Translations under genes and position numbers: made by a program | Shown here: positions 13,865-53,096 of the stretch, piece by piece | Numbering within the stretch: position 1 is the stretch's first letter | How the letters are laid out: each line of letters begins with the position of its first letter | The notes under the pieces: model-generated | What the model was told of the DNA's origin: nothing | Databases searched by the model: none | What the model saw: only the letters and a program-made list of their open reading frames with translations | Assembly (NCBI RefSeq): GCF_024713975.1 | Contig: NC_091104.1 | Coordinates: 10,373,580-10,437,579 of the forward strand | DNA length: 64,000 nucleotides | Reading direction: 5' to 3' | DNA from: Paralichthys olivaceus | Lineage: Eukaryota > Chordata > Actinopteri > Pleuronectiformes > Paralichthyidae

Positions 13865-13928
<64 letters not shown>

Positions 13929-21115: not shown

Positions 21116-35057
<13,942 letters not shown>

Positions 35058-40100: not shown

Positions 40101-43100
40101 ATGTTGTGACAGTCTCAAGAGTGTCGTCTCCTCCAATGCTTGTTAATGGAAAACAAATAATGAATAAAAAATGTGCATGATGAAATGCACATGATTTTGC
40201 TGTTGCACAGTCTCTCACCTCCATGAAACTCCTTTGTACTCAGTTTTGAGCTGCATCAGATTCTTTGCCTTTGCACCAAAACCAGTCTACAAAAGAGATG
40301 CAGACATAATTTTCATCATCATCCTTTAATTGCTTTCCTACTGTTTCTCCCTCTGACTCATTAAATTGATAATGCACTCTCTGCTTATACATTTACATGA
40401 TTAATCAAGTGATATAATTGATCCAGCATTGATCCATCTCCACCGGCTTTATATGACAAGTTGTGTTTTGTAGAAATAATGTGCACAGCACGATGCACAC
40501 AACTTAAAAGGCACAACAAGAAATTATGTTTGTATTAGTTGCAAAATAATCCTCAGAGAATAAAAAATAGACTATAGCGATAAAAGTAAGTTGCATAAGC
40601 TCATAAAAAATGCAAACACACAAAACAGACACATGAAAACACAGTAATGTGCATCAGAGACTAACTTGGTGCACATGGTGCCTTTTCAAGTGTTTTTTAA
40701 TGATTCTTCAGCATGACTATGGATTCAACATCTTAGATGCTACAGCCTCAAAATTTGATCACAAGTCTTTAGACGGGTGCATGGGATCTGTAATACATTT
40801 AAATTACTGGACCTGAGAGAGTGAGCGGACGAATAAGGGTGGAGTGAATCAGTTAGGTGTGCAGGGGCCTGATGGTGCAGCGATCGATTTGTGAGATTGA
40901 GAATTTTGAATTGAATTCTGCATGTGACGGTAAGGATGTAATAAAAGCCAAAGCAAAAGAAAACAAAGATGCTTATAAAAGATCTGCATTGATTGATGGA
41001 TCGCTGGTGAAAGTGCAATGGAAGACAAGTGAAAGGGGGAATAAAAGTAGCGGGATCTCACCGTTAGAGAGTCGCCCAGAGCGGCCACCACCTTGACGTC
41101 TGCTGGCCGTACCCTGTGAACTAACAGAGCATCAACGTGAGCACACGCTGCATCAAACCCTTGTCTCTCACTTCCTGTCACGGCTGAGTGACATCATGTG
41201 ACTTTACCTGAAGAGGGCACAGAGTTGGACGGAGCCGTGTCGACACAGGAGAAGTCACTTCCCCAGTTCTACAGAACGACAGAGACGTGTTTTAGGCATT
41301 TGTAGTGGTAATGTATTGCTTGCCATCGTGCACCAGCTCCATGGTTATTATGGTGGAAGTTTTCTGGAAGCTGGTGAGAGGAGAACTCAGGCAGCAGCTG
41401 ACGTCTTATGCAAAAGAGTTTAATGTTGACTTGACTCATCAAAGAGACAAGAAGCTGGAACAATATACAAACGCTAACAGAGTAACATGAGCAAGTGTCA
41501 CCCCCGAGTCTAGAACAAGATGGTTAGAAAGGCTTCTGCTGTCACTCTCGATGTTACACGTAGGGGTTCGCATCCAATCGGACAGTTAAGCCTAAAGCAT
41601 GCATTCCTAAATCACGTTGTGTCTTCCCACTGGTGTTACACACAAAAGAATTGGAGTTGTTGCCGCTCTGTCTGGGGCATCTGAATTAGATATAGTTGTC
41701 CTTTTATCTTAAACCTGACCTTGGGTATTGCTTGGACAGAGAAGAGAGAACGTGTGGACTCTATTCTCCTACTGTACTGATGCAATGTGTGAGGACAGTC
41801 AAAAATTCCTTTATGACTTACATTAACAGGAGGAGGAGTGGGTGGAGGACCTGGGAAGGTGTAGTTGCTGTTGACTGCGGTCCTGAAGAATGGGCTGGTC
41901 TAATGAAGAAATTATAAACATAAGAATGTGTATACATAAAATCCATTAGATACACATATTGTGTTGTTTCTGATCAAATGCTGCTGAAAGCCACGTTACC
42001 TCAGAGGGACACTTCAAATCGATGCAGTCTTTAAAGTCATGTGAAGAAGTCTTGTTTCCCACTGGCTCTAACTGAGGGATAATAAAAGTGGGAGATTTAT
42101 TTTGAATCAGGGAGAAGAAACAGAATTCAAAATGCAAAGTAAGAAATGTCTTTTTGTGAAGTAAGTCACACCATGTTGTTCCAGAGAGCTCGAGCCATGA
42201 CAGTGTGAGCTTTCTGGCTCAGGTGAAAACAGTCGGGGGCGAAATAAGAGCGATCAGGACTGCCATCCTTTAAAAAAAAAAGAAGGGATGAGATTTTTAA
42301 ACATACTAAAATGAATGAAAACACAATTCTATATCATGTTTCAAGTTTGTCAGCTTTTACCTCTAAAGTGGGGATGGTTGTCTCTCTCAGCATGGGCTGC
42401 AGGACCACGGTGAAGTTGTTGTGTGTGTCGTAGCGACCAGTGTCAACCAGCTCTCTCATGACACGCTGCAAGGAAACACAGACAAAACAACATTTTTGTT
42501 TCTTTATTTACATGTAAATGATTTTATTCCACCTTGTTTTTCTGCTTTATTCAAAGTCTGACCTGCTCGAAACTACGTCAAGCCGGTGACTGTGAACGGT
42601 TTAGCAATTAAGATCAGATAAGCAACATCCTTAGTGTCTTTTGAATGTAATTTTTTGATTAAAAAAGATGTAAATTTAATTCATTCTCTATTGCTTTTTG
42701 AGCTGATTATCTATCTCTTGTTTCAATTGCTGCCTTTTCTAATTTCCAGTTTCTGCATTTCTCTTTTCTAGATACATTCAGTTTATTATTCTAAGTTAAT
42801 TATTTTCTTGTCACATATATATGCAGTGTTTCTCCTTTTGCAGCACAAACGTTGCTCATCTGATGATGATTGATCAAGTTCAGAAGCAAAATCCAATGAT
42901 AAAAGAAAAAATTTACAAACTGTATAGTCTCATTAAATCTAAAATCACTTTATCCCACTTAATTACTTGTTTGAGAACTTTGTTTAATTCAAAGTCTGTC
43001 CAGCAAATCACTGAAGTTTTAAAAATCTAATTCATTCAGTGTTTTCAGTCAGCAAATATGAATGAGATGCAGTGTGAAAGCTGCATATCAGCACTGTGAG

Positions 43101-46100: not shown

Positions 46101-49100
46101 AAACACCACTTAGAGAATCCTGAATACACATAAGGCGGATAATTCATAATTGTTATGATAACTTTATTTATATGGCACCTTTCAAAGCAGTCATTATAAA
46201 GTGCTTCACAGAAAGAACAAATACAAAACCAGAGAATACAACAATCTAAGACAATAAGAAAAAGATATTATTTAAATCAAAAAACTGAAAATACTATACA
46301 AGACTTGAACATGAGCCAGAAGCAAAAGTTTCTACCTGCAGCGTTTTTAGAAGAATTGCTTTCTGTAGCCTTTGGTTTATGCTTTCATCTTTCAAACAGT
46401 CACAACTGCAACACAAAAAGGGAAAAACACATCTGACATCTTTTACAAAGAGCAAGATCATTACTCTATAGATACAGATCATTTCTTTTTATTTCAAAAT
46501 AAAAGTTATTTCTTACTTGTCCTGCTGGTGATACGTGCTCCACACTGTGACATGGATTAATGCATGATGCAGCTGTAAACATGCACCAAGCATGTTAGTT
46601 ATTTATTCACAGCAAAATTCTGGTAAACAAAACGCTACCATACCTTTTCTTGCAAGTTCCGCAGAGCTGCCTCCACATCCCGAACAACAGCTTCAACATC
46701 CGCAGCAACCTGAGGCAAGAAAGAACAGTCGCATCATGTTATCGTCCATCTATACATCCATTCGCCATACTGCATTAGGTCAAATAACATGATTTTGTAT
46801 GAAAGAAGGAATCTTACATGTGGTGAGCAGGCACACAAGGAATCTGCCGAGACAAACAGCAGAACAAACTTCCAGCCTGAGACCTGCAACAAAATATGAA
46901 GGACAAATATTATATTTCAATAATGTATAAGATGTTTAAAAAGAGCAAAAGTGAGCAAACTCTATCCACTGTCAGACGTTGATAAATGTCTAAAGATTAA
47001 TTTGTCAAACAGAATATACTGTTCATTACAATTACCATGGAACTGGTTTTCTGTCACCATGAACTTTAATTTGTTTAAAGATGATAAAGAAACAGTTTTA
47101 GATGCATATTAATAATTATCCAGGTTCTAGCTGAGACTTAAGAGGATTGCTACTACATGCATGTGTATGGAGGAAGTCTGGTTTGGCCAAAATAAGGACA
47201 GACATACTGGTGTTAGTTCATCTCGAATAGAAGAAATACAAGTTTTAAATATAAGAGTCTTGTTAATGTTGCTTGTCCTCCCAAATACAGAATCTGGTCC
47301 AAGTATAATTTATTCATATTGTTTTATTCTAATATTTAAGGAGAGTAAACAGAATTCTCTGTAATGTCTACAAAACATTAAACTTTGTTCTGAGAGAGTT
47401 AATGTGCACCTGATGTGACAGGGACTGAGACAGTTCTTCCGCTTCCTTCAACAAACTCCTGCAACACAAACACTCTCATATAATAAACAGCATTAAGATG
47501 TGTGACCGTTCATCTGTGTGGGATGTGTCTATTACCTGGGTTGCAATGAGTCCTGACCCACGTGATGAGGGATCATTTCAGGGGTAAACATGGAGAGCAA
47601 CTCTATAAAAGTCACAGACAGTTGTAAAGTAAAGCTACGGTGTGTTTCATCCCTTACAGTACATTCAGACTGAGGATTATGTACAGTGTGATATGTACAG
47701 TGTGAGGTAAAATACTTTCATCAGTTCATCACCCGCGTTTACAGCCCTGGTCTTATCCTGAACGATAAACTCGACTAAACTGTCAGATTATTGTTCCCTT
47801 GCTTGTTCATCAAAGTGTGCTCTGTATCTGGAGCTTTCTGTGACACGCTCTTGACTTTTAGCTCAAATCCACTCAAAGGTTAATGAGTGACAGAGAAGGA
47901 TTATTGTGGTTAACTGACACAAAATCCAAGACCAGGACACTAACATGTACTTATTCATTTATTTATTTATATCCATGTACCTGTCATTGTAAAAATGGTA
48001 AAATACTTTGTTGAGTCCTCTTGTTATTTTAGATGATTATGTACTTTTGTTTTTCCACTAGTTTGTACAAATACTCAGTGGTGAGAGAGCGCAGTGGGAC
48101 TTACCAGTTATTCTACTGACCAGGATGGATGCCTCGTGCCTAATTATGAAGACATACACATCTTTAGATACACAATTAAAATATCTCTTAAAAAAGTTTA
48201 TTGATGTGTCTGCTCTCAGCTCTTACCTGTGAAACAGCGGCACGCCCAACGTGTAAACAGCTGAGATATCGGCAGGTCTGAGAGCGTCGACTGACGGTGA
48301 GAAAACAAGTGAATTAAAGCAAAGTTAGGGAACAACACTGCAAAATGAATTTAGATAATTTGGCTTGAATTGAGGGAACTGATCGTGATGTGCTGTCACA
48401 GAAATCAATCAAAAGAAAACACCAACCTGAGGAGGATGGAGACGAGGGTCCAGGAGTTGGTGAGCAAAGTACTGACATGTAACTTTCTGCCTGTGACATA
48501 AATATGAAAACTCAGACTATTAGTCAGTGTGTGTGAAAAGCAGATAACACTAAAACATGACGGACAGCACCGTACCATCTCTGTGTTTGACTTTTTCGTT
48601 GGCTGGTCATTTTCTCCAGCAAGGTAAACAGCATCTACATGTGACATAGGAAACAAATACAGTGAAAAATGTAATACCCAAAGGTCATGCAGTAAAAATT
48701 CCCTCTTCTCATCTTGCACTCTTCTTAAAATAATGATGTAGTGAATAAAATGATTAACTTTATTGCACACAACTCATTTCCTTTGTTGAACCACGCCTGG
48801 GATCACGTTTCTTTACTTTGCTTCAAGGTTATAACTGATTTGATGAGAATTACCTGACATTACAGCCACTCATTGCTTGTATCATAATCCTGCGTAATAA
48901 ACTGTGGTGTAATAAACTTTCTGTGTGGTTTAGTCTTTTTGCATTTGATGCCCAAAGTCCTTTCTGCACATTTATACGTAGCGGAGACAAACTTTAACTT
49001 TCGTGCGAGTGTTTGTGTTGCAGGAGTTTGTTGAAGGAAGCGGACGAACTGTCTCAGTCCCCGTCACATCAGGTGCACATTAACCCTCTCAGAACAAAGT

Positions 49101-49899
49101 TTAATGTTTTGTAGAAATTGCAGAGAATTCTGTTTACTCTCCGTGCATTATTGAAAGATAATATTTGTCCTTCATATTTTGTTGCAGGTCTCAGGCTGGA
49201 AGATTGTGCACACCACTGTGCACACCATCAGAAAACACATGTATCTTACACAGGTAACACTTTAGGTCACTGTTTAACGTTTATAAGCAGTATATAAACA
49301 TTTAATGATCTGCTGATTACACATTAAAATGCCATTTTGAGTGCTTATAGTTGGAAACAACTACAACTCATCCACCCATAAGTGGAAACTGTTTTATTAG
49401 CAGATATTGAATTCTAATATAGTGAAGCACACATTGTTATATAATGTATGTCTTGAAATAATACGTTACAATTGCTAATCAATTCTGTGCACTAATGAAC
49501 ATACAATTATATTATACTGCTTATAAATGCTAAAATCAAAGGTTACCCTAAGCTCAAACTCTGAAATGCATGAGTTAGACAGCTTCTGCAATGATTACTG
49601 TGTAAACTCGTCTAACTCGTGATGCAGAATAACTTACAATATGTGAACATGACCACAACAACCCTACATAAAAAGAGAAAGTGGCTGTGTTTTATCTTTC
49701 TCCCCAAACAACCCCAAAGAAATGTATGGTGAAAACTTCAAAAAATTCAGATTCCTCCAATCTGCAACGTGTAATTCAGTTCATTCAATATGTAAACATA
49801 ACTTTAAATGTGTACAATTATTGCCTGTTCTTTACCTGTAAACTGAGCCCAGGATCCAACAAGGGCTGCCAGGATCAGGAGCGCACATCTCGTCGTCAT
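37135..49899 (-). CDS. plb1: Phospholipase B1, membrane-associated (tandem GDSL lipase)
   Basis: I could join 41 exons without a frame break: 3279 nt = 1092 aa plus stop. The protein is an ectoenzyme with broad phospholipase A/lysophospholipase activity, known from intestinal brush border. It has a signal peptide (1-19, [15 protein letters not shown] core), three GDSL-type repeats (about 63-340, 341-697 and 698-1005), a Pro/Ser/Thr linker, one transmembrane helix (about 1048-1073) and a short basic cytoplasmic tail. Repeats 2 and 3 each carry a full set of catalytic blocks; repeat 1 does not. Mammalian PLB1 has about 1458 aa and four repeats, so one repeat is missing here. It lies upstream of ppp1cb on the same strand, as in human 2p23. 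Exon borders are hand-placed and the weaker donors (exons 18, 36) deserve a cDNA check. Confidence 0.93.
38815..38960 (+). repeat. SINE-like dispersed repeat in plb1 intron 34
   Basis: GGCGGTACAGCGCTGTCACC, a box-B-like GTTCGAATCCC, GGGGCTTTTCTGTGTGG and TTGCATGTTCTC follow the order of a common fish repeat. Confidence 0.55.
39080..39125. repeat. GA-rich microsatellite in plb1 intron 34
   Basis: GA dinucleotides grading into GGGA units. Confidence 0.85.
41822..44932 (-). other. plb1: plb1 exons 15-27: catalytic GDSL repeat 2
   Basis: Exons: 44874..44932, 44673..44746, 44531..44574, 44296..44404, 44143..44194, 43971..44051, 43538..43603, 43355..43446, 43173..43254, 42361..42465, 42172..42267, 42000..42071, 41822..41899. 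Block I is AAVGDSIT with nucleophile S358, the oxyanion block is FIGGNDIC with N471, and the last block is FAPDCFHLS with D607 and H610. All are as needed for SGNH/GDSL hydrolysis. The last exon is a Pro-rich linker (PGPPPTPPP). Confidence 0.92.
44786..44833. repeat. (CTAT)n/(CATC)n tetranucleotide repeat in plb1 intron 15
   Basis: Compound tetranucleotide tract between exons 15 and 16, with six CTAT followed by CATC units. Confidence 0.9.
46158..46215 (+). repeat. LINE/SINE 3'-tail-like repeat in plb1 intron 11
   Basis: ACTTTATTTATATGGCACC, TTTCAAAGCAG and AAAGTGCTTCACAGA match the tail of a common fish retroposon. Confidence 0.55.
49007..49207 (+). repeat. Inverted copy of plb1 exon 7 and the start of exon 8
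   Basis: Block 1 (49007-49142) matches the reverse complement of 47340-47475 over 136 bp with about 5 differences and no gap. It includes exon 7 with both splice sites. Block 2 (49146-49207) matches the reverse complement of 46864-46925 over 62 bp with about 2 differences, covering the exon 8 acceptor and its first 20 bp. The 414 bp of intron between the blocks in the original is represented by 3 bp in the copy. The copy sits in plb1 intron 1 and points the other way. Two exon 7 codons are changed (GAA to GAC, CTG to CCG). Confidence 0.93.
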
Positions 49900-52419: not shown

Positions 52420-53096
52420 TTAAAGTAAAATGAGTTCACCGAAAAATGAAAATTCACTCATTATCCACTCACCACTGTGGCGATGGAGGGAGGGATGAAG
52501 TGTTTGAGTCCACAAAACACTTTAATCGACTCAATCCACCAGGGTTTTGACCTGAAAATGACTTAGAGTCAAGTCAAATTTGAATGTTGGGGCTTATATT
52601 GGAAATACTCTGCATACTGTAAACACTTGCACATTGTACTTACTCAGCTGTACTGCTCTTCTTATTTTTTCCTTTTTACCTTCAAAAACATACTGTGTAT
52701 ATATTTTTATATTTATATTGTTAAATTTTAATCCTTGATTTTATTAGCTTCTTATATTTAGAGATGTCTGACATGCACCAACAACACCAAAGCAAATTCC
52801 ATGTATGTGTAAACTTACTCGGCAATAAAAGCTTTTCTGATTCTGATTCGGACACTCGGATGAAACCACAGGAGCAGTATGGAGGCGTTCTTATATATTT
52901 GTTCTGTTGTTTATTTACGTTTTCTGAATTGGTCACCGTTTACTTCAATTGTATTAGTTTTTGGCTGCAACCCTGTTTACCCCTGAGCCTCCATAAGAGT
53001 TTTGTGGACTCAAACACTTCACCCACCCCTCCATCCCCACTGTGGTGAGTGGATAATGAGTGAATTTTTCATTTTTGGGGTGAAGCATCCCTTTAA
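52420..53096 (+). mobile_element. MITE with long terminal inverted repeats and TTAA ends (copy A)
   Basis: The left end (TTAA..., then AAAAATGAAAATTCACTC and ATTATCCACTCACCAC) is mirrored by the right end over about 55 bp, and both outer ends are TTAA. That fits a non-autonomous element with TTAA target preference (piggyBac/Kolobok-like). It has no transposase frame. It is interrupted by a retroposon tail at 52598-52852. Confidence 0.75.
52598..52852 (+). mobile_element. L2/CR1-like retroposon 3' tail nested in the MITE
   Basis: GCAAATTCCATGTATGTG, AAACTTACTCGGCAATAAA and GCTTTTCTGATTCTGATTC at the right edge are the well-known end of fish L2-like LINEs. It splits the MITE interior, so it inserted later. 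Confidence 0.6.

Follow-up and report, generated by a model that had tools for sequence, protein, structure and literature searches.

An inverted copy of exon 7 of a plb1-type gene, together with adjoining intron sequence and part of exon 8, lies inside intron 1 of the same gene in the 64-kb window (the whole stretch of DNA analysed). The inverted repeat is real and far above chance, and the copy has a total length of 204 nt. We consider it probable, at roughly 0.7, that it came from one local template-switch (MMBIR-like) insertion with a skip of 414 nt, that it has been drifting as intron sequence since, and that its likely effect is none or slight mis-splicing.

Results

Self-BLAST of the 64-kb window, with cut-offs for inverted pairs of at least 40 nt and E 1e-6, paired 49004-49142 with 47478-47340 on the minus strand (139 nt, 133/139 identical or 95.7%, E 8e-59) and 49146-49207 with 46925-46864, also on the minus strand (62 nt, 60/62 identical or 96.8%, E 2e-22). 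A second self-comparison of the window gave an extended variant of the first block, 152 nt at 92%. The eight differences over both blocks are all substitutions, without a single indel, and are scattered over the arms from position 2 to position 199 with no conversion tract visible. The earlier note had put the blocks at 136 and 62 nt, their identity at about 96% and the sequence missing between them at 414 bp, all of which is correct to within a few bases.

The first original arm (47340..47478, minus strand) holds 20 nt of intron 6, the whole of exon 7 and 70 nt of intron 7, and the second (46864..46925, minus strand) comprises the 3'-terminal 42 nt of intron 7, acceptor included, followed by 20 nt of exon 8. 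On the plus strand the copy carries the same content in two blocks, 49004..49142 and 49146..49207, separated at the inner junction by a 3-nt filler, GTG (49143..49145). Missing from it are 414 nt of intron 7 (46926..47339, minus strand), which have no convincing transposon-like ends or flanking duplication. The spacers from arm to arm are 1525 and 2220 nt. The acceptor and donor of exon 7 and the acceptor of exon 8 all fall inside the copy; as it is antisense relative to the plb1 sense strand, these splice sites are unusable there.

Apart from this pair, the only inverted pairs recovered by self-BLAST in the 64 kb were those of CA/TG arrays with one another and one between 52435-52522 and 52995-53084. 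Long CA/TG arrays are located at 13866-13926, 22930-23009, 31479-31557, 33445-33483 and 34348-34386, two of them of about 40 units. The segment 52435-53084, with inverted arms of about 90 nt that are 90% identical and some 470 nt apart, looks like a fold-back transposon, and its arm ends are presumably of a kind seen in teleost transposons. Such ends, the compactness of the introns and the abundance of CA arrays point to fish DNA. Direct similarity (72% over 160 aligned positions) was also observed between 33960-34101 and 52848-53006, probably an old shared transposon piece. Rfam gave no match in the window at the gathering threshold, that is, no known structured RNA.

Nine minus-strand exons, with ends picked by eye, join at GT/AG boundaries to give a single open frame of 178 codons that begins with a signal-peptide-like stretch. 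The coding part of exon 1, which holds this start by reading, occupies 49836..49899, and intron 1, the host of the copy, 48635..49835 (1201 nt). Exons 2-6, spanning 47536..48634 and amounting to 289 nt of exon, lie between the arms; they are followed by exon 7 (47410..47458, 49 nt, acceptor ttgcag, donor gtgcac), which enters in phase 2 and leaves in phase 0, and by exon 8 (46818-46883). Because exon 7 is 49 nt long, its skipping would shift the frame, and joint skipping of exons 7 and 8 (115 nt) would do likewise. The frame is open across all nine modelled exons, and the gene is therefore without visible decay there.

A plb1 gene is defined by tandem GDSL-lipase repeats behind a signal peptide. 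This arrangement was found here, with the qualification that the first repeat gave no Pfam hit and neither repeat a good PDB match. The second repeat, joined by eye, matched Pfam Lipase_GDSL at E 8e-20, while single pieces gave weak, sub-threshold Lipase_GDSL matches for only two of eight; a further GDSL-type exon recognised by eye in 40849-41193 had no Pfam hit as a piece on its own. No GDSL motif could be read in the first repeat, which contains exons 7 and 8, and a PDB sequence search with this repeat returned one chance-level match (E 0.85), the same search with the second repeat returning nothing at E 0.001. Neighbouring genes are fut9 (PDB 8d0o, E 2e-142), an endo-alpha-1,2-mannosidase gene (PDB 6zdc, E 3e-102), ypel5 (PDB 8qbn, E 6e-46) and an acyltransferase with an Acyltransf_C domain, which we take to be lclat1; tandem GDSL repeats near ypel5 and lclat1 presumably match plb1 synteny. 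The gene model and the Pfam match on the second repeat uphold the strand, exon numbers, intron position and assignment to a plb1-type GDSL-lipase gene proposed earlier.

The 4-mer GTGC is present at all three junctions of the copy (49003, 49143 and 49206). As microhomology it is suggestive, a hint only, since some 4-mer is also shared by 1136 of 20000 triples (5.7%) of randomly drawn 16-nt windows. Beyond the blocks, the similarity score observed for the 3' flank was reached by 22/300 shuffles in the near comparison and 262/300 in the wide one, and that for the 5' flank by 183/300 and 162/300, respectively. A larger decayed inverted duplication around both blocks is unsupported by these shuffle-like scores. 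The near 3' flank holds an 8-nt match, CACATGTA, equalled in 22 of the 300 shuffles, by which the copy could formerly have been a little longer. In the right flank, directly at the copy's end, TGTGCACACCA occurs twice within 49205-49227 with starts 12 nt apart, and this doubling may have been left by the insertion event.

The earlier note offered two accounts of the missing 414 bp, a copy that had shrunk or an original that had gained sequence later. We favour a skip during copying, or else a subsequent deletion in the copy that left the filler, because a gain in the original offers no explanation for the GTG filler and the 414 nt are without clear transposon ends; a later gain fits less well. 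A transposon origin of the segment was rejected, as it has no convincing terminal repeats and, by reading, no target duplication; the sole inverted pair near its ends is AT-rich, matches at 15/20 and has one arm outside the segment. When the 414 nt were compared with the right part of intron 1, 268/300 shuffles scored as well.

The pre-mRNA from exon 1 to exon 9 (3256 nt) has a predicted minimum-energy fold of -1025.3 kcal/mol, against -804.5, -808.4 and -808.6 kcal/mol for three controls in which the copy was shuffled base by base. Copy and original are paired in the predicted fold at 135/139 and 60/62 positions (195/201 arm positions), and the arm duplexes alone are at -245 and -95 kcal/mol. 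The stem said earlier to bury exon 7 is thus the predicted minimum-energy fold, with 48 of the 49 nt of the exon paired; without intron 1, 29/49 are paired, in another structure. The stem vanishes when intron 1 is removed first, and therefore any effect would hinge on exon 7 being made and paired before intron 1 is spliced. Exon 7 sits about 1.2 kb past the intron 1 acceptor, a distance that at usual elongation rates takes far less than a minute to transcribe. With so short a delay, pairing of exon 7 with the copy before splicing of intron 1 is possible, on a minimum-energy model of naked RNA that ignores co-transcriptional splicing, proteins and helicases.

Discussion

Two collinear inverted blocks, flanks that are not clearly alike, an internal jump and a 3-nt filler fit a template-switch insertion. 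In an ancestor, as DNA was being replicated or repaired, a strand crossing plb1 intron 1 would have switched to the opposite-strand template at exon 7, copied about 139 nt, leapt 414 nt, then copied roughly a further 62 nt and gone back. The outcome would be an inverted templated insertion of 204 nt within intron 1, drifting as intron sequence since. The plb1 pre-mRNA could in principle fold this copy onto exon 7, yet the copy would normally depart with intron 1, and for this reason it is likely to have no effect or to cause mis-splicing at a small rate. The copy is probably neutral now. How the copy arose, how old it is and whether it is neutral are all inferred from one sequence.

Inverted templated insertions close to their template have been documented (PMC8421209; PMC7954356), the former study describing that MMBIR insertions copy a nearby template in inverted orientation and carry short microhomology. 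The plb1 insert resembles templated insertions of the MMBIR type, a group that also takes in FoSTeS, in being near and inverted to its template and in having an internal jump and filler, and the self-comparisons do place an inverted copy near its template. It differs in that the template is 1.5-2.2 kb away, the event is longer than the catalogued short ones and the microhomology is only suggestive. In PMC7954356, switch fragments of the great-ape gold-standard set are at most 128 nt long and the template distances discussed are tens to hundreds of nucleotides. Both the whole insert (204 nt) and block 1 alone (139 nt) exceed that size, and the template lies beyond those distances; these points, and the weak microhomology at the ends, stand against a template switch. 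Among the literature matches listed, which are a poor guide to the published record, none described such a copy in plb1, and the listed matches for plb1 with zebrafish mostly concerned fungal PLB1.

The divergence between copy and original is 8/201 (95% CI 1.7-7.7%), or 6/193 if the differences beside the two outer ends are attributed to noise at the junctions. With substitution rates of 2.5-5e-9 per site per year assumed, the insertion is perhaps 3-8 My old. Both differences in exon 7 change an amino acid (E/D and L/P), which fits an unconstrained copy if the copy is the side that changed. The similarity had been ascribed earlier to youth or to gene conversion. Youth agrees with the divergence of 3-4%, whereas conversion has no support here: no tract is visible and, in our judgement, conversion is not needed to explain the similarity.

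The stem might act on splicing, although we regard this as doubtful. In the nascent RNA it would hide both splice sites of exon 7, leading to less inclusion of that exon or to back-splicing of exon 6 onto exon 2, which would give a circle of 289 nt. The frame shift caused by exon 7 skipping means that the action of the stem would reduce functional plb1. The gain in predicted stability over the shuffled controls, the pairing of nearly all arm positions and the dependence of exon 7 pairing on intron 1 agree with this account, as does the role of inverted Alu pairs across introns flanking exons, which promote circular RNAs and can change exon choice (PMC11263572). Complementary arms do bracket exons 2-6 as a circular RNA would need, but the downstream arm is not confined to flanking intron: it takes in exon 7 itself, consists mostly of that exon and intron 7, and reaches just 20 nt into intron 6. 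A fold of naked RNA also leaves out proteins, helicases and splicing during transcription, no decay of the gene is visible over its nine modelled exons, and the direction of an effect is not given, as the RABL5 duplex counteracts exon skipping (PMC11263572).

Equally doubtful is an effect through RNA editing. The duplex may be an ADAR substrate, with exon 7 and intron 7 edited from A to I, by analogy with exon-intron pairs such as that of GRIA2, which is edited. A nearly perfect duplex of about 200 bp is available, exon 7 holds 13 adenosines, and base-pair reading of the self-BLAST alignment gave one A-C mismatch in intron 7. Many such duplexes are, however, edited without any consequence that we know of. 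Inverted SINE pairs in reporters were edited and lowered reporter output (PMC5080714).

Long inverted pairs within transcripts are common elsewhere in the form of inverted Alus (PMC11263572), and the prior for a special function is therefore low; in our judgement most inverted-pair stems are tolerated. Transcripts with inverted SINE pairs nevertheless show lower expression according to PMC5080714, which also describes a selection-like bias against such pairs in transcripts. Neutrality is then not to be presumed, and an effect cannot be waved away. Less likely than either effect by itself is the further step in which the inverted exon copy would be a cis-acting 'lock' on exon 7, setting plb1 output via frame-shifting skipping, a circle of exons 2-6 or editing of the exon.

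Two known kinds of duplex invite comparison with the one predicted here. Like intronic inverted Alu pairs (IRAlus), which affect splicing and circular RNA, the plb1 arms would form a long intramolecular duplex in one pre-mRNA; unlike them, they are not a dispersed repeat family, as far as the window alone tells, and one of the two arms consists of a coding exon together with its two splice sites. The plb1 case shares with exon-intron editing duplexes, in which an editing complementary sequence is involved, an intron segment complementary to an exon. The predicted plb1 duplex is far longer and nearly perfect, and has its complementary part upstream in intron 1 with exons 2-6 between.

An assembly artefact, with a chimeric or fold-back read incorporated in the contig, is improbable. 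Inverted copies close to their source are a known read artefact, but such artefacts are normally exact or indel-rich copies, and here 201 nt hold eight substitutions and no indel, 414 nt are missing internally, the junction contains filler and the sequence flanking the copy on either side is unlike that of the original. The restriction of the differences within the blocks to substitutions, together with the internal gap, makes an artefact unlikely.

A MITE-like element was observed at about 49253-49547 (ends by reading), with 38-nt arms that are 76% complementary and a shared TTATAAGCAGTATA core; its end sequence occurs once in the window, and chance gives likewise (39/100 shuffles). Least probable of all is that the gene piece was picked up by a transposon and deposited in intron 1, for although this element starts 46 nt from the copy's end and repeats of 10-13 nt, 85-92% alike, bracket the copy within the intron (inverted at 48901-48910/49210-49219 and 48969-48981/49517-49529, direct at 48764-48774/49207-49217), the copy lies outside the element, the repeats are short and, in our judgement, of the sort expected by chance in 1.2 kb, and with the source 1.5 kb off in the same gene a local event is simpler.

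The local template-switch insertion, if its stem is inert, would be an ordinary templated insertion that shows what load of antisense exon an intron bears without visible harm. If the stem acts, plb1 would offer a young natural case of a duplex covering an entire coding exon, and a system for testing nascent RNA folding before first-intron splicing. Should the copy be a 'lock' on exon 7, it would be a natural snapshot of the birth of an exon-intron regulatory duplex.
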